Below, in pieces: positions 3,128 to 10,747 of a stretch of 38,666 nucleotides of DNA. The stretch is taken from the NCBI GenBank assembly GCA_013334575.1, contig JAAXXG010000006.1, forward strand, positions 3,185 through 41,850. The letters run 5' to 3'. This DNA comes from Candidatus Moraniibacteriota bacterium (GTDB taxonomy: Bacteria; Patescibacteriota; Minisyncoccia; Moranbacterales; UBA1568). The position numbers were made by a program, and so were the translations under genes. Under the pieces are notes generated by a model. The model did no database searches, was not told the origin of the DNA, and saw nothing but the letters and a program-made list of their open reading frames with translations. Each line of letters opens with the position of its first letter. Positions within the stretch are counted from its first letter, which is position 1.

Positions 3128-4003
3128 TCAGGATCCTTCATGCGGGAACTGCCCCCGTGCTACCAGGTTGATCGAAGGGAAGTGTGCTTGCGACGAGAGC
3201 GCGAGGACGATTGCGTCTGCGACCGTTGACGGAGGGGCGAATCCCGTATCTTTTCGACCGTATCCACGGCATATCTCGCGGACCGATTCCTGAACACCCG
3301 GTGCGTCGTAGAGGCCGGTATCGATGGCTCCGGGACGGATGTCCGTTACGAAGATATTTTCCGGAGCGAGTTCGAGCATCGCCGCGTTCGCAAATCGACC
3401 GAGAGCTCCTTTCGAGGCGTTGTGAACACTGCCTCGAACGACGCCGCGTATGGCGGACATTGACGATATGATACAGATCCGGGTCTCTGCCTGCTTTCGG
3501 AATCTCGGCAGGAGCGATTGAAGCAGTATAATCGTATTCGGTACGACCGATAGCTCCGCTTCGATAAGAATTCGCGGGACGGATGAGATAGGCAGGTATG
3601 GGTTGTCGTTTGGGATGCATACCGATCCGGCACCGAGTCCGACCGACTGGACCCAGTAGAGCGGAAGATTATCCGGAATTTTTTCGGTAAGAGCGTGAAT
3701 CTGATCGGTGTCGCCAAGGTCGACGGGGGAAACGGCAATGTCCGCATTCGGGACGAGCGATAGGATCCATCGCGCAATGGCATCGAGTTTCTCTTTTGAC
3801 CTTGAGACGATATGGACTGACGCGCCGGCCCGTGCGCAGGCAAGCGCGGTGGCTGCTCCGACGTTCGCCTTGTACTCCGATCCGTCGTTCTCGACAATCG
3901 AAAGGTGGGTCGGTGTTCCGGTGATGGTGTCGTGGAAGATGTGACGGACGAGCTTCATGCCGACGCCGGTTACGAGTACGCGGATTCCTGTCAGTGTGTT
4001 CAT
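3128..4003 (-). CDS. Atypical short-chain dehydrogenase/reductase (SDR)
   Basis: VTGVG...NVGAATALACARAGASVHIVSRS, ISSMSAIRGVVRGSVHNASKGALGRFANAAMLELAP, RPGAIDTGLY; AGGAG ahead of the start codon. Confidence 0.82.
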   Translation of the reverse strand: MNTLTGIRVLVTGVGMKLVRHIFHDTITGTPTHLSIVENDGSEYKANVGAATALACARAGASVHIVSRSKEKLDAIARWILSLVPNADIAVSPVDLGDTDQIHALTEKIPDNLPLYWVQSVGLGAGSVCIPNDNPYLPISSVPRILIEAELSVVPNTIILLQSLLPRFRKQAETRICIISSMSAIRGVVRGSVHNASKGALGRFANAAMLELAPENIFVTDIRPGAIDTGLYDAPGVQESVREICRGYGRKDTGFAPPSTVADAIVLALSSQAHFPSINLVARGQFPHEGS

Positions 4004-4162
4004 GAGAGTATCTCCTGGTTTTTATTGGAAAGGGACCGATTATTCTAGTTCTTCGAATTAGTATCGTCAACAAAAGTGACTAGTAAACAATAGTGCTGAT
4101 ATATGGTAATGACAATTATCTTTATTAAAAGCCATTTACAAGAGATAAATCATTTGATATAT

Positions 4163-4182
4163 TGTCGTCAGAAATATCGACA
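4163..4182 (+). promoter_or_regulatory. Putative TrmB-like regulator operator, site 1
   Basis: TGTCGTCAGAAATATCGACA; TGTCG/CGACA dyad; near-identical sites upstream of the two paralogous regulators. Confidence 0.65.
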
Positions 4183-4195
4183 TTATACGGATCAT

Positions 4196-4936
4196 ATGCA
4201 GGAGCGGGAAATCAGAAGGGTGTTAAAGGGGTGTGGTTTGGACGAAAAGGAAGCGGCGCTTTATCTTGCGGCGCTCAATCTTGGAGAGGCGGGAATGTCG
4301 GAACTTGCGGCGGAAGCCGGCTTGAAGCGCGGTACCGCCTATCTGATCTTCGAGTCGCTCGAGAGGAAGGGGCTCATGGGGAGTTTTAGGATGCGTTCCG
4401 GATTGCGTTTTGTCGCGACGGAGCCGGAGGCGATACTTTCCGGGGCGGAACATCGTCTGAACGAATTGCGGGGAATCATGCCGGAACTGATCGCTCTCTC
4501 GAAGAAGGATGAGGATGAGCCGAGAGTGACCTTCTATCGCGGCGAGGCCGGTTATATCGCTGCCATAGGGGATTCGCTTCGGAAACCGGGTTCGGTTCTT
4601 CGGCATGTCGGATCCATCACGGAAGCGCATCTGGTCTATGGGGATTACGATACGTCGGTTTATGTTCCGGAGCGGATAAGGAAGAATATCTCTATCCGTT
4701 GCCTGTACACCGCTGACACGTCGCGTGCCATTCGCGAACGGGACCATGTCTCGGAGCGCCGAGAGATCAAGTATCTTCCCGCGGGGTATCCGCTAAAGAC
4801 GGCTATGCTTATCTATGACGGTCATGTCGTCATTACCGGGGCCGCGAAGGAGCTCGTGACGGTTGTCATCGAGAGTCCCGCACTTGCCGAGAGCGAGCGG
4901 CTCAGATTCGATCTTCTGTGGTCGTTACTTCCGTGA
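4196..4936 (+). CDS. TrmB-like (sugar-specific family) HTH transcriptional regulator, paralogue 1
   Basis: N-terminal wHTH LKGCGLDEKEAALYLAALNLGEAGMSELAAEAGLKRGTAYLIFESLERKGL; alignable by eye to 7459-8196 and 9045-9770. Confidence 0.82.
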   Translation: MQEREIRRVLKGCGLDEKEAALYLAALNLGEAGMSELAAEAGLKRGTAYLIFESLERKGLMGSFRMRSGLRFVATEPEAILSGAEHRLNELRGIMPELIALSKKDEDEPRVTFYRGEAGYIAAIGDSLRKPGSVLRHVGSITEAHLVYGDYDTSVYVPERIRKNISIRCLYTADTSRAIRERDHVSERREIKYLPAGYPLKTAMLIYDGHVVITGAAKELVTVVIESPALAESERLRFDLLWSLLP

Positions 4937-4951
4937 TGGAAGGTGTATCGG

Positions 4952-5002
4952 GGACCTGTCCGACCCCATGATCCCACGCTGGGAGGCTCCGGCACCGGAA
5001 GA
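4952..5002 (+). repeat. 51-bp direct repeat, copy 2
   Basis: Identical to 2996-3046. Confidence 0.95.
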
Positions 5003-5022
5003 ACAGGCGAAAAAGCCGTAAG
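4954..5022 (+). pseudogene. Orphan PBP1A C-terminal tail remnant
   Basis: Same reading phase as PBP1A: D-L-S-D-P-M-I-P-R-W-E-A-P-A-P-E-E-Q-A-K-K-P-stop, with an alternative tail to ...EDFSKGE-stop of the intact gene. Confidence 0.7.
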
Positions 5023-5181
5023 GCGGGATCCCATGGCGCCGGAGTTCGGAAAGATGTATGGTGTCCGTATGATCGGTCCCGTTCTTCGCGTGACGGAAGA
5101 TGCGGAAGTTCCGTCTTTGTTGATTGTCATAATCGGGAGCGTTTCGGGAATCCGTTCCCGATCCGATTCCCGCACAATCGT

Positions 5182-5361
5182 ATGAAGAAGACGCTTATCC
5201 GCGGGGTGGACAAGGAGAGGGAGGCACAGGAACATTTTCACCTTACCCGGCCGCCGCGACTCGAGGGAAAGGTGAAGAACGCGATGATGAATCCGAAGCG
5301 GAAGAAGCCGGTAAAGACGGACCGGAAGGGTGAGGCGGGGAGTGGCCTGGAAGGGGAATAG
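5182..5361 (+). CDS. Small basic hypothetical protein (59 aa)
   Basis: Manual ORF below the track cutoff: MKKTLIRGVDKEREAQEHFHLTRPPRLEGKVKNAMMNPKRKKPVKTDRKGEAGSGLEGE. Confidence 0.35.
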   Translation: MKKTLIRGVDKEREAQEHFHLTRPPRLEGKVKNAMMNPKRKKPVKTDRKGEAGSGLEGE

Positions 5362-5393
5362 GTGTCGCGAACGCCTTATTTCGGAAGAGTCGT

Positions 5394-5846
5394 ATGTTCG
5401 AGATAAGATCCGATTTCATGCGGTTTCAGCGAATCGCCAGGTTCGTCGTACTTTCGTTTTCGTTGAACCTTGTCTGGGAGATGTCTCAGTCATTTCTGTA
5501 TGCGCCGCATTTTTCGGGCTCCTTAGAGTTTATCCGTATACATGTCGTGGCCGCGTCCGTCGACGTCGCGTTCCTTTCTTTCATCGTGTGGATCGGATGT
5601 GCCGTTTCCGGAATGCGCCTTGGAAACGGCCTGATTCGCATGGCCGCGACTGCCCTGGTCGGATTCACGGTCGCGGTCGTCATCGAACGTGTCGCATTGG
5701 CGGCAGGGATGTGGTCATACGGCATATACATGCCTCTTTTGCCGTTTTTCGGCGTCGGCCTGGCACCGATCCTGCAGATGACCGTCATCCCCGCTATCCT
5801 GTCCCGGGTGTGGTTCGGGGTGGAACGGGATTCCGCATCGGTTTGA
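5394..5846 (+). CDS. Hypothetical integral membrane protein
   Basis: About four hydrophobic helices; SLNLVWEMSQSFLYAPHF...GMWSYGIYMPLLPFFGVGLAPILQM. Confidence 0.7.
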   Translation: MFEIRSDFMRFQRIARFVVLSFSLNLVWEMSQSFLYAPHFSGSLEFIRIHVVAASVDVAFLSFIVWIGCAVSGMRLGNGLIRMAATALVGFTVAVVIERVALAAGMWSYGIYMPLLPFFGVGLAPILQMTVIPAILSRVWFGVERDSASV

Positions 5847-5933
5847 CGGGGGCATAGCTTTCCGATACCATCGGACCCGGTTAGGGGAGTATCTGAACAA
5901 TCAACTGTAAATAACCTGGAGGAGGGTATTGCC

Positions 5934-6284
5934 ATGGAAGGAGGCAGGTATTTCGGGAAGTGTGAAGTGGAAGTCGTCGTCGTTCGTACGGATAATGCGA
6001 CGGGCGCGAATACGGTCGTTATCCGGATCAAAGGATGCGAATGCTCCATGCTTGAGTTTTTCTCCGCGGACCATTCTTCGGCTTGTGATCTGCATATGTA
6101 TGTGGGCCGGGTCTGGCTCGCTAGCATAGAGGTGATCATGTCGCCGGAGGCACTTCCTTCAGTGCTGTCGGAGGTGAGACTGCTTTTTGAAGGGGGTGGT
6201 CCGATGAGAATGGTGTCCGACCGGCAGCTGGCGGAATCGATCGTTCGCGCGTCATCCGGACTCCGTGTATCGGAGGAGGTGTGA
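5934..6284 (+). CDS. Hypothetical protein (116 aa)
   Basis: Strong SD (ggaggaggg) ahead of ATG; overlaps/adjoins next ORF. Confidence 0.6.
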   Translation: MEGGRYFGKCEVEVVVVRTDNATGANTVVIRIKGCECSMLEFFSADHSSACDLHMYVGRVWLASIEVIMSPEALPSVLSEVRLLFEGGGPMRMVSDRQLAESIVRASSGLRVSEEV

Positions 6285-6285
6285 T

Positions 6286-6873
6286 GTGAAGATCAATCTA
6301 GCGGTCACGAAGCGAAGCCGAGCGGAAGAAGCGCTCTGTACCTTCGTCGGACTGATAAGGTCGCGGAAGCTGCTTTCGTCCGATGAACATGAATTTCTGC
6401 CGAACGAGTTCGGAGCGATCCATATCCTTCGCTTCCTGATGGACGATATCGCACGAGTCGCGGCATTTTTCGCGGAGTCGGAGTCAATGGTAGGAGGCGG
6501 ATATATCGGATCCGCGGTGGGGTATTTCCGCAGGAAGTCGGGGTTGTTTACCAGAACGGAACTGAGAGAGGTGTCGAAAGATCTCCTGCGCGAAGCATGT
6601 CGGGCCGGATCATTCCTTCATCTCGATCCGTTCGGTTCCGCATATCCCTGGACCGAGCCGTATTTGAAGGAGGGACCGCTTCGGGAAGAGTTGCGAAACA
6701 TCGCAAAGCAGGAAGGCGCCCGTGTCCGATTAGTGAAGAAGACGCGGCATTTCGGGACGTATGCGCTTATCGTGCGGATCCACTCCGAACGGGGAAACCG
6801 GTCGCTCGATATCCCGTTCCGGAAGATCGGAAAGTGGTATTTCCCATCCGCGGGGCAGTGGAACGTGAGATGA
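6286..6873 (+). CDS. Hypothetical protein (about 195 aa), probable GTG start
   Basis: GGAGGAG upstream of GTG; VKINLAVTKRSRAEEALCTFVGLIRSRKLL...; coupled to the preceding ORF. Confidence 0.6.
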   Translation: MKINLAVTKRSRAEEALCTFVGLIRSRKLLSSDEHEFLPNEFGAIHILRFLMDDIARVAAFFAESESMVGGGYIGSAVGYFRRKSGLFTRTELREVSKDLLREACRAGSFLHLDPFGSAYPWTEPYLKEGPLREELRNIAKQEGARVRLVKKTRHFGTYALIVRIHSERGNRSLDIPFRKIGKWYFPSAGQWNVR

Positions 6874-7119
6874 AAAAGCGGTATGAGTCGTAACGACACA
6901 TGCCGCTTTTCCGTTTCCTGCGCTTTTGAAAGATCCCATTTCCGCCGGAAGTTGTGGAAAAACGGGGTTTGGCGTATCATGGACCGGTAACGGCAAGCAA
7001 TCATGCGGGTTTCCCGCGCCGGCGACGTCGGAAGCCGCGTGATACCTGCCGTTTGATAATAAACCGGTAACGGATGTTCCGTTCCCGATCCGGATTCCGG
7101 ATCGTACGGCGATAAAGGT

Positions 7120-7401
7120 ATGGCGAAGATGACGAAGTCGCAGCTCATGACGGTCGTGGCCGAGAAGTCCGGCCTTACGAAGAAGGAAGTGGTCGCGGTC
7201 GTCGAGGCGATCACCGCGGTCGCGTACAAGGAGGTCAAGAAGAACGGGGAGTTCGTGCTCCCGGGCTTCGGAAAGATGGTGAAGACGAAGCGCAAGGCTC
7301 GCATGGGCGTGAACCCGGCGACCGGCGAGAAAATCAAGATCGCGGCCAAGACCGTGGTCAAGTTCCGCCTCGCGAAGGCCGCGAAGGACGCGGTCCTCTA
7401 A
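7120..7401 (+). CDS. hup: HU-family DNA-binding protein
   Basis: MTKSQLMTVVAEKSGLTKKEVVAVVEAI...GEFVLPGFGKMVKTKRKARMGVNPATGEKIKIAAKTVVKFRLAKAAKDAV. Confidence 0.95.
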   Translation: MAKMTKSQLMTVVAEKSGLTKKEVVAVVEAITAVAYKEVKKNGEFVLPGFGKMVKTKRKARMGVNPATGEKIKIAAKTVVKFRLAKAAKDAVL

Positions 7402-7423
7402 GGTATCAGAAACGATTCGCCGT

Positions 7424-7455
7424 CACGAAAAACCCCGCGAAAGCGGGGTTTCGTG
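7424..7455. terminator. Bidirectional terminator between hup and TrmB-like paralogue 2
   Basis: cacgaaaaaccccgcgaaagcggggtttcgtg. Confidence 0.85.
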
Positions 7456-7458
7456 TAT

Positions 7459-8196
7459 CTATTCGAGATCCTTTCCCGCATCCCAGACGAAGTCAAAGAT
7501 GGGTCGAAGCGATCGGGCGAGCTTCTCTGATTCGATGAGGACGAGGAATGGAACGTCCTGAAGAGAAGATATGGAAATCTTATTTTCCGTTATGACGATG
7601 TCCGTGTCGAAGGGGCGAGGAAACATCCGCACCGTCTGCCCGACATCTTGGAGCTGTTTTCCGTATGCTATATCCGTTAGAGATTCGGGGATCATGTGCC
7701 GGACATTCGCGGTGTAGTGGCGTTTTTCGTATCCGGAAATCCAACGGCTAACGGTTCCGGGAAAGTTGCGTTCGATTTCGGCATAAGAGGATATGCAGAA
7801 CGATTCTTTCGCGTAGTTGAGGCTTTCGTAGACGTTGAGTATGCCGTCCCGGTCGGCAATATAGTGAATTTTAGGTGCGGCTCCGCCCTTGTTTCCCATT
7901 GTCTGCAGATAGGGGATCATGTCGGCAAAATTCCTCAAATCGGTTTTTTTTCTGATCAGGATGACGGAGGGATCGACAGCCTGATATTGGCGGACTTTTT
8001 TTCCGGGAGAAAGCGTTATCAGGCCTTTTTCCGCAAGTTCTTCCAGAATAAGGTAGGCGGTCGGCCGCTTGATGCCGGAACGCTTCGCGACGGACGTGGC
8101 GCCTGTTTTTCCGGATTCTAGGAGGGCAAGATAAATCAGGGCTTCCTTTTCAGAAAAACCGACCGATAAGAGAAGTTTAGAGAGGTCCGTATCCAT
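7459..8196 (-). CDS. TrmB-like HTH transcriptional regulator, paralogue 2
   Basis: MDTDLSKLLLSVGFSEKEALIYLALLESGKTGATSVAKRSGIKRPTAYLILEELAEKGLI. Confidence 0.82.
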   Translation of the reverse strand: MDTDLSKLLLSVGFSEKEALIYLALLESGKTGATSVAKRSGIKRPTAYLILEELAEKGLITLSPGKKVRQYQAVDPSVILIRKKTDLRNFADMIPYLQTMGNKGGAAPKIHYIADRDGILNVYESLNYAKESFCISSYAEIERNFPGTVSRWISGYEKRHYTANVRHMIPESLTDIAYGKQLQDVGQTVRMFPRPFDTDIVITENKISISSLQDVPFLVLIESEKLARSLRPIFDFVWDAGKDLE

Positions 8197-8225
8197 GCTT
8201 CTATGGTAACATTTCCAGAATAAAA

Positions 8226-8245
8226 AGTCAATAATTCTGACGACA
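8226..8245 (-). promoter_or_regulatory. Putative TrmB-like regulator operator, site 2
   Basis: Minus strand TGTCGTCAGAATTATTGACT, 17/20 identical to site 1. Confidence 0.6.
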
Positions 8246-8300
8246 TAATAAATACGTTGCTTTATTAAAGCATAAAATAATAGTATTAATAGCAATATTA

Positions 8301-8329
8301 TGGACACGAATGAAAAATCTTGCTATGAT
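8301..8329 (+). promoter_or_regulatory. Putative sigma-70 promoter for 8386-8904 (TGGACA-N17-TATGAT)
   Basis: tggaca cgaatgaaaaatcttgc tatgat, with a perfect palindrome just downstream. Confidence 0.6.
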
Positions 8330-8334
8330 ATCCG

Positions 8335-8351
8335 GTTATCGAATCGATAAC
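8335..8351. promoter_or_regulatory. Perfect 8-1-8 palindrome at the expected transcription start (candidate operator)
   Basis: GTTATCGA A TCGATAAC. Confidence 0.5.
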
Positions 8352-8385
8352 ATGTTCATTTTCAACCATACTATCGGAGGCTATC

Positions 8386-8904
8386 ATGAAAAGGTTTCTT
8401 ATGAGTTTAATTGCTCGGGGGAGCGACTCCGGGCTGTTCGGTCTCGCAATTGGCATTTCGGTCGCAGCGTTGGTTCTTTCCGGAATAATTCTTCCGTCGA
8501 TCATACTGTCTGCTTCGATAAATCAGTTTGCTCCCTTGCTGACGCAAGATCGTTTGTTTCTCATTTTCACTTCGTCAGGTCTGGTATTCGGTATATGTGC
8601 CATATTGTTTGTGAAAGGCAAAGAATGGTCGCCTTTGTTTCCGTGGCATCTAACCAGCTGTCTCAAGAAGATCAGGAAGGAATTGACGGATGAAACGATG
8701 GTCCGTATCGTAGATGGTCTGCTTGCCGGCCATCCGGATTATATGCACCAATGGGTTACGGACTTCGATCGATTTCAGTGGAAGATGCCGATATTGAGGC
8801 GCATCGAGGCGGAGATCGATGATGCTCGGTCAAGAGCCGAAGAGCTTCGCGAAGAGACGCGTGTGCTTGCGGAGAATCTCGGTCTCGACTTTGAAAATGG
8901 ATAG
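8386..8904 (+). CDS. Hypothetical protein, two N-terminal TM segments plus C-terminal helical domain
   Basis: SD ggaggc; MKRFLMSLIARGSDSGLFGLAIGISVAALVLSGIILPSIIL...; charged C-terminus. Confidence 0.65.
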   Translation: MKRFLMSLIARGSDSGLFGLAIGISVAALVLSGIILPSIILSASINQFAPLLTQDRLFLIFTSSGLVFGICAILFVKGKEWSPLFPWHLTSCLKKIRKELTDETMVRIVDGLLAGHPDYMHQWVTDFDRFQWKMPILRRIEAEIDDARSRAEELREETRVLAENLGLDFENG

Positions 8905-8935
8905 AGAGTACGCCAATGTCGGGAAGAAAATGCAG

Positions 8936-8966
8936 AGACCATGGATACCCACATCCATGGTCTTTT
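8936..8966 (+). terminator. Rho-independent terminator
   Basis: agaccatggat acccac atccatggtct tttatt. Confidence 0.8.
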
Positions 8967-8997
8967 ATTATTCGGACCGTTGCCGTATCGGGAAAAG

Positions 8998-9027
8998 GAA
9001 AAACCCCGCGTAAGCGGGGTTTCGTGT
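8998..9027. terminator. Terminator of TrmB-like paralogue 3, near-identical to 7424-7455
   Basis: aaaaaccccgcgtaagcggggtttcgtgtt. Confidence 0.8.
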
Positions 9028-9044
9028 TTTTGTCAGTACCGTGG

Positions 9045-9770
9045 CTATTCGAGCGAATCCCAGTGGACGGAGAAGATGCTCCTGAGGGTGTCGTGAATCT
9101 TGCGGCTTTCGATGAGGACGCCGGTCATCTCTTCCCAGGAGAGGATGGCGATCGAATGCGTGCCGAAGATGAGGATGTCCGATTCGAGCTTGAGCGTGCC
9201 GGAGGGATCGAGCCGGGTCAGGTGAAAGTCCGGCTGGTCGCCCCGGTGGTACTTCTTCGTGCCCGGGGTCTCCGGAAGGATTGCCTGGGTGAAGATCCGA
9301 AGCTCCTTGCGCTTCGGGCGATAGGCGTCGTCGAACCAGTCGCCTTCGGCTTGGAACGACCCTTCGGAGAGCCAGGCGTGGATACGGCTGCCGGGATACT
9401 TGAGCGTTTCCCGATAGAGGTCCTTGATACCTTCCAGCCCTTCGAAGTAAAGCACTTTCGGCTTGCGGTCGATGAAATTGGCGATGGCGAGGAGCGAGGG
9501 GAGGATAGACTGGGCGATACGGGCCGATTCGGCGGTCATTTCCTCAAGTTTTCGGGGGTCTTCGGCACGATAAAGAGTCTTGTTTCCGTTTCGGACCGTC
9601 TTTATGAGTCCGCGCTCGCGGAGGCTGTCCATGAGGCCATAGACGGTAGTGCGCTTCATCCGAGCCTTCTGTGATATGCGGGCGACGGACGCTTCGCCGA
9701 GCTCGAGTGCCGAAAGGTATATCCGGGCCTCGTTTTCCGAAAGTCCGAGTCTTTTGAGCTGGGGAATCAT
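9045..9770 (-). CDS. TrmB-like HTH transcriptional regulator, paralogue 3
   Basis: MIPQLKRLGLSENEARIYLSALELGEASVARISQKARMKRTTVYGLMDSLRERGLI; shared C-terminal layout with the other two. Confidence 0.82.
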   Translation of the reverse strand: MIPQLKRLGLSENEARIYLSALELGEASVARISQKARMKRTTVYGLMDSLRERGLIKTVRNGNKTLYRAEDPRKLEEMTAESARIAQSILPSLLAIANFIDRKPKVLYFEGLEGIKDLYRETLKYPGSRIHAWLSEGSFQAEGDWFDDAYRPKRKELRIFTQAILPETPGTKKYHRGDQPDFHLTRLDPSGTLKLESDILIFGTHSIAILSWEEMTGVLIESRKIHDTLRSIFSVHWDSLE

Positions 9771-9781
9771 AGTGGAAAATT

Positions 9782-9799
9782 TGTCGTCATATTCCGACA
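9782..9799 (+). promoter_or_regulatory. Putative TrmB-like regulator operator, site 3
   Basis: TGTCGTCATATTCCGACA. Confidence 0.62.
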
Positions 9800-9970
9800 A
9801 AATAATGATAGCCTGTGATTCATAAAAAATCAATTTTATAAGCCAAAAATAAGCAATAGAAAAAAGAGGATATTTAAATTCGTTATTTTCGAACGAAAGA
9901 ACCGACAAACGGTTTACGATTCAGGCAGTTGTTTACGAGAAATATTCATCAACTGCAACAAGGAGGGGAC

Positions 9971-10747
9971 ATGTCGGTAACATCGGCGCAATTTAGCGCA
10001 CAACAGGATTTCTGGGCGAACGGAGAGCATCGTCCGGATAAAGTGGGAGACTTTCTGAATCGGAAAGAAGTCATCCGCATGCTTGCCGCTGACGGGCTTC
10101 CGGGAGCGAAGATTCTTGATGCCGGATGTGGCACGGGGTATGTCGCGGAGATGCTCGGGAGGCGCGGCGCGCATGTCTGGGGTATCGACGAGTGCATCCC
10201 GTTTATCGATGCGGCGACGAATTCGACGGCGAATGATGTTGTGCGGTTCCAGTCCGGAAGGATCGAAAAACTTCCGTATGGGAGCGAATGCTTCGATCAC
10301 GTCATTGCCGTCAGCGTCCTGCAATATATGTACAAAGGGTGTATCGGGGAATTCTTCCGTCACGTCGCTCGCGTTCTCAGGAAAAACGGGACTGTGATCG
10401 TCTCGATGACGCATCCCGACTTGTATCGTTTGTGTTACAGGGATCACGAAGGGGATACGCAGGATAAGCCGGCCTGGATTCACTTTTCGGGGCGTAGCGG
10501 GAGCGACGGGGTGGATATGGTGGATACCTATACCCAGCACTACTTCAACGCATCCGGAAATGGCTCCGTTCTTCAAGGGGTGCGGGCCTATTCCGGGAAG
10601 GATATCGTGGACATGGCCGAATGTGCCGGTCTCAAGATGGTTTCTTCCAGGAGTATCGAATATCCGAAGTCGCTCGTAGAAAAGTATCCCCAGTGGGGAA
10701 GCGTATGGGGCTATCCCTCGTATCTGATCCTCGAGTTTCAGAAGTAA
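9971..10747 (+). CDS. Class I SAM-dependent methyltransferase
   Basis: SD aaggagggg; ILDAGCGTGYVAEMLGRRGAHVWGID, FDHVIAVSVLQYM, RHVARVLRKNGTVIVSMTHPD. Confidence 0.85.
   Translation: MSVTSAQFSAQQDFWANGEHRPDKVGDFLNRKEVIRMLAADGLPGAKILDAGCGTGYVAEMLGRRGAHVWGIDECIPFIDAATNSTANDVVRFQSGRIEKLPYGSECFDHVIAVSVLQYMYKGCIGEFFRHVARVLRKNGTVIVSMTHPDLYRLCYRDHEGDTQDKPAWIHFSGRSGSDGVDMVDTYTQHYFNASGNGSVLQGVRAYSGKDIVDMAECAGLKMVSSRSIEYPKSLVEKYPQWGSVWGYPSYLILEFQK

Follow-up and report, generated by a model that had tools for sequence, protein, structure and literature searches.

Three TrmB-like regulator genes in a 38,666-nucleotide stretch of a Candidatus Moraniibacteriota genome (the window; contig 7, positions 3185-41850, in a genome of 1.13 Mb and 22 contigs) each have an operator-like dyad in their promoter region and are each transcribed divergently from a different neighboring gene. 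The lineage, Candidatus Moranbacteria or Moraniibacteriota, is one that we take to belong to the phylum Patescibacteria. We call the regulators R1, R2, and R3 and consider it probable that the dyads are operators of the regulators encoded downstream, so that each, as a local TrmBL2-like repressor, would control its own gene and guard a divergent neighbor of its own. What we observe directly is that the sites exist and are conserved, where they lie with respect to promoter-like hexamers, and that the genes are arranged divergently. The R1 and R3 dyads are, on comparison with related genomes, most likely real and conserved operators of TrmB-like genes.

R1 (246 amino acids; 4196-4936, forward strand), R2 (245 amino acids; 7459-8196, reverse strand), and R3 (241 amino acids; 9045-9770, reverse strand) all match the TrmB family PF01978 above the gathering score of 25.6 bits, with 37.8, 62.5, and 55.3 bits, respectively. 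They belong to a set of nine TrmB genes above the Pfam cut-off genome-wide, four of them on contig 7. The R1 operator, TGTCGTCAGAAATATCGACA (4163-4182, forward strand), is 20 bp long, and its first base is the last base of the −10 hexamer in the candidate promoter TTTACA-N17-TATATT (4135-4163, forward strand). For R3, the operator is 18 bp, 2 bp shorter than the R1 site (TGTCGTCATATTCCGACA as read on the forward strand; 9782-9799, reverse strand), and lies 5 nt past the −10 hexamer of the promoter TTGATT-N17-TATCAT (9805-9833, reverse strand). The R2 dyad, TGTCGTCAGAATTATTGACT (8226-8245, reverse strand; core GTCA-N7-TGAC), is weaker than the other two and overlaps the −35 hexamer of the candidate promoter TTGACT-N17-TACCAT (8203-8231, reverse strand), which ends 6 nt ahead of the ATG. 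The initial annotation had reported dyads at these same positions, 12-32 nt upstream of TrmB-like genes; we measured gaps of 13 nt for R1 (ATG 4196), 29 nt for R2 (ATG 8196), and 11 nt for R3 (ATG 9770). Its statement that each regulator is divergent from a different effector also held: the partners are an atypical short-chain dehydrogenase/reductase (SDR), a 172-amino acid orphan protein with hydrophobic stretches, and an S-adenosylmethionine (SAM) methyltransferase.

We gathered the promoters of TrmB genes across the order and searched them for inverted repeats by expectation-maximization. With the source genome left out, the search of 99 promoters converged on the arm TGTYGWC and a 6- or 7-bp spacer, and 60 promoters from other families alone gave the same motif, TGTYGWC-N6/7-GWCRACA, of 20-21 bp. 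The log-likelihood of the 60-promoter motif was 63, compared to 8-23 in eight shuffled sets. Since a position weight matrix scan of ~343 kb of the source genome with an AT-rich background gave many matches in GC-rich coding sequence (GC content of the genome sample, 57%), we restricted the comparison to promoters, using the 297 gene promoters sampled in this ~343 kb. In the held-out model, R1 (17.4) and R3 (16.4) scored above all 297 other promoters, while R2 (12.2) ranked about 12th. Also near the top were a contig 4 TrmB gene (15.3) and an R2 paralogue at 53.7 kb of contig 7 (13.5). Thus, the motif is real and family-wide, and is weakest at R2.

The strict form of the dyad is rare. TGTCGTCA-N5-7-YGACA occurs twice in the window, compared to 0.00 times in shuffles, and exact matches to TGTCGTCA-N4-8-YGACA number two in the whole genome, namely the R1 and R3 sites upstream of their TrmB-like genes. 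An equal frequency in unrelated DNA, one of two outcomes that the initial annotation had named as refuting its reading, is thus not seen. The 8-mer TGTCGTCA alone is mildly enriched (4 occurrences versus a mean of 0.98). A looser form, TGTCG-N8-11-CGACA, has 13 matches genome-wide, of which 11 fall within long open reading frames (ORFs) with flanking GC contents of 48-64%, while the R1 and R3 matches sit in DNA of 34-35% GC. ORF callers run the R1 and R3 frames through their sites. However, the distance from the R1 site to the ATG, 13 nt in the source genome, is 15 nt in three close orthologues, which shifts the frame, and 2 nt elsewhere, and therefore the site is not translated sequence.

The other refuting outcome, absence from orthologous promoters, was not seen either: the motif was found in the promoters of R1 and R3 orthologues. 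The R1 operator is retained in all seven other orthologues (for example TGACGTCAGAAATAACGACA, TGTTGTCAGAAATTACAACA, and TGTTGTCATAAATATCAACA), with both arms conserved at fixed spacing and changes in one arm matched by changes in the other; the promoter elements TTTACA and TGATATA are kept in genomes G001 and G002. For R3, two further species of the genus (G004 and G001) have almost the same −35 and −10 hexamers and operator. The dyad also extends beyond the order: elsewhere in the phylum, 15 of 29 TrmB promoters scored at least 10 bits, compared to 0.87 expected from shuffles, and carry sequences such as TGTCGTCGGAAATACCGACA and TGTTGTCAGAAATATTGACA. Sites in TrmB promoters cluster 20-50 nt upstream of the ATG; of 35 strong sites, 26 begin 20-40 nt and most others 40-60 nt upstream of it.

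Divergent transcription is a strong feature of the family. In the sampled loci, 34 of 36 TrmB genes were divergent from their upstream neighbor, compared to 37% of other genes (Fisher p = 5e-12), and 85 of 107 were divergent overall, with genes called mechanically as longest ORFs. The partners vary and include radical SAM proteins (10 of 67), methyltransferases, SDRs, and others. The pairing of R1 with the SDR is kept in G001, G002, and locus L188, and that of R3 with the methyltransferase in G004 and G001. Since close relatives keep these partners and remoter orthologues have others, regulator and effector appear to stay paired in the short term and to be exchanged in the long term.

From these features we infer binding, dimerization, repression, a ligand, and control of the effector. 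Each regulator, presumably a dimer, would combine a winged helix at the N terminus with a C-terminal domain of the TrmBL2 type and would bind TGTYGWC-N4/6/7-GWCRACA. With the dyad placed at or immediately past the −10 (R1, R3) or over the −35 (R2), a bound regulator would obstruct RNA polymerase and so repress its own gene, much as archaeal TrmBL1 acts as a repressor when bound downstream of a promoter (PMC4706686). Since the genes are laid out divergently across ~160-200 bp, the same regulator most likely also controls the effector. A signal sensed by the C-terminal domain would then release the regulator from DNA.

Several findings weigh against this model of operator control. The right arm of the R2 dyad, TGACT, deviates from the dyad and is also part of the best −35 hexamer at this promoter (TTGACT-N17-TACCAT), and so the R2 site is the least certain of the three; R2 orthologues carry a diverged, AT-rich form, TTTATCA-N5/6-TTGACAAA. 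Several of the nine TrmB genes of the source genome have no site in the held-out model, and only about 40% (41 of 104) of the order's TrmB promoters reach the site score. On the effector side, sites are weak, with 3 of 66 regions scoring at least 12 bits compared to 1.0 in shuffles, and many of the lower matches are merely TTGACA boxes. A second, effector-side operator was tested as a general rule, and it is weak. Individual loci do have candidates. A half-site, CGACAAA (TTTGTCG on the other strand; 9903-9909, forward strand), lies on the methyltransferase side in all three orthologous loci (10.1, 8.8, and 9.5 bits), and one relative of R1 has TGTCGTCTCATGATTCGACG on the SDR side. A perfect 7-bp inverted repeat, GTTATCG-AAT-CGATAAC (8335-8351), just after the −10 hexamer TATGAT of the 172-amino acid protein gene, is a possible effector-side operator; it scored 1.7 bits with the motif model, below site level.

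The similarity of the three sites had led the initial annotation to propose a repeated regulator/effector module and, as a possibility, a small cross-regulated circuit. The module, with its operator-like dyad and divergent effector, is borne out, but we consider it unlikely that the three regulators form one small network by binding one another's nearly identical operators. Such a network would fit the identity of the R1 and R2 sites at 17 of 20 bases, the presence of TGTTGTCAGAAATATTGACA, close to both of these sites, at a KRPT-type regulator elsewhere in the phylum, and the report that some archaeal promoters are under cross-regulation by TrmB and TrmBL1 (PMC4706686). However, R1-R3 are only 24-26% identical to each other, fall into separate old clades (in a fast tree with several long branches), and face different effectors, while their closest relatives, at 67%, 51%, and 67% identity, respectively, are in other genomes. 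Moreover, operator similarity is family-wide, with an identity of 12.6 of 20 positions within a genome compared to 13.2 between genomes, although there are only nine within-genome pairs. Since the clades are separate and operators of the same genome resemble each other no more than those of different genomes, the likeness of the sites is explained by common descent of the DNA-binding mode. Cross-binding is possible, in particular between R1 and R2, whose sites agree so closely.

A second alternative, that the dyads are promoter parts in which TTGACA or TTGTCG arms serve as −35 boxes of AT-rich promoters and the symmetry is incidental, gains from the double role of the R2 arm and from a class of TrmB promoters in which a TTGACA arm lies 17 nt before a −10 and near the ATG. 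Yet the R1 and R3 dyads lie downstream of the predicted −10, dinucleotide shuffles fail to yield the dyad, other gene promoters of the source genome score lower, and conservation at fixed spacing extends to both arms, all of which makes this explanation improbable. A role for the dyad at the RNA level, where it would form a short hairpin in the untranslated leader of the regulator transcript, is very improbable. For R1 and R3, such a hairpin would indeed stand at the 5′ end of the mRNA, directly ahead of the ATG. However, the dyads of R2 and many relatives are over the −35, where no mRNA made from that promoter would include them, and short arms with spacings of 18, 20, or 21 bp fit a protein dimer.

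The predicted structure of R1 has a TrmB/TrmBL2-like overall fold. An AlphaFold2 model (mean predicted local distance difference test score 84; predicted template modeling score 0.54) has a winged helix, a long linker helix, and an alpha/beta domain. A fold search of the PDB returned TrmBL2 as the best match (E 1.5e-13) and TrmB next, with low full-length template modeling scores (0.31-0.42) and large root-mean-square deviations, as seen with differing domain angles; the C-terminal part resembles phospholipase-D-like folds such as NucT. A sequence search of the PDB with R1 gave no match. R1 shares its winged-helix and C-terminal layout and a similar length with TrmBL2 of Pyrococcus furiosus (PDB 5bpd, 5bqt), but identity to TrmBL2 is 15-18%, and TrmBL2 is an abundant chromatin protein, whereas R1-R3 have operators at single genes. 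The NCBIfam equivalog for TrmBL2, NF041141, reached at best 18.9 bits compared to a cut-off of 530, and other equivalog models were also far below theirs.

With the archaeal regulators TrmB, TrmBL1, Tgr, and VNG1451C, the genes described here share palindromic operators at or after the promoter and, by our model, repression when bound downstream; for Tgr, autoregulation has been proposed (PMC4158304, PMC4706686). The archaeal operators, TACT-N3-AGTA, TATCAC-N5-GTGATA, and TACT-N7/8-GAGTA (PMC4158304), are not TGTYGWC dyads, and neither the R1-R3 operators nor the learned motif takes any of these forms. The archaeal proteins also carry the sugar-binding effector domain PF11495, for which R1-R3 gave no match to E 0.01, and several of them are global regulators. 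In layout, the loci resemble those of autoregulated repressors of the TetR and MarR types, in which the regulator is divergent from its target and the operator lies in the shared region. R1-R3 are divergent from their putative targets with a dyad in their own promoters, conserved as described; TetR and MarR belong to different protein families, however, and here one TrmB family is spread over many unrelated effectors. The mechanism is of a familiar kind, and what is new is the operator sequence, its phylum-wide spread, and the strongly divergent layout. Among open-licence papers, we found none joining TrmB with Patescibacteria, Parcubacteria, or the Candidate Phyla Radiation, and none reporting a TrmB operator from these bacteria.

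A conserved dyad with a matching regulator constitutes an operator that can be tested directly, for an expanded family of regulators in mostly uncultured bacteria with small genomes. It also offers a handle for finding the signals of their orphan divergent genes. More speculatively, the data could reflect a phylum-wide code, in which a reduced genome has up to ~15 TrmB paralogues that recognize variants of a single operator (differing in arm bases and in length, 18, 20, or 21 bp) and are paired with exchangeable divergent effectors, and in which cross-talk or its avoidance would depend on a few residues of the recognition helix, for example R1 residue 46. Without correction for relatedness, Thr46 (R1 numbering, in the recognition helix) was associated with dyad presence (p = 1e-4), residue 46 was associated with half-site base 6 (p = 0.02), and regulators with Pro46 nearly always had GTC arms. 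We regard these associations as a lead only.

In the SDR divergent from R1 (291 amino acids; 3128-4003, reverse strand), a conserved His substitutes for the catalytic Tyr (H-x-A-x-K), and extra residues are inserted behind the first Rossmann strand. Both features are present in 4/4 orthologues (source genome, L122, L123, and L188), and the protein is probably not a standard dehydrogenase. It is present in 3 of 57 genomes, all of one genus and including the source. The orphan protein divergent from R2 (172 amino acids; 8386-8904, forward strand) has N-terminal hydrophobic stretches; searches matched it to no family and found no relative of it among 56 related genomes, and a 173-amino acid gene opposite the R2 orthologue of G055 proved not to be a relative. 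The methyltransferase gene (9971-10747, forward strand) likely starts at ATG 9971, behind AAGGAGGGG, rather than at TTG 9929. Its leader contains an inverted repeat, GCAGTTG...CAACTGC (9917-9955), just ahead of AAGGAGGGG, and AAACAACTGCC (on the other strand), which is identical in three species.

Three further observations concern these loci and their relatives. At R2 (8196-8231), its contig 7 paralogue, and the contig 4 TrmB gene (L016, L022), the −10 lies ~6 nt before the ATG, which suggests that these genes have leaderless or near-leaderless mRNAs. A strong, bidirectional terminator-like hairpin (9000-9023) separates the orphan gene from R3. Lastly, in three genomes of the genus (L146, L154, and L162), TrmB-like genes with strong dyads (TGTCGTCGACACTCGACAAC, TGTCGACGACATTCGACAACA) are divergent from proteins of 177-200 amino acids that appear to be the three Mu Gam-like (PF07352) members of our Pfam tally of partners.

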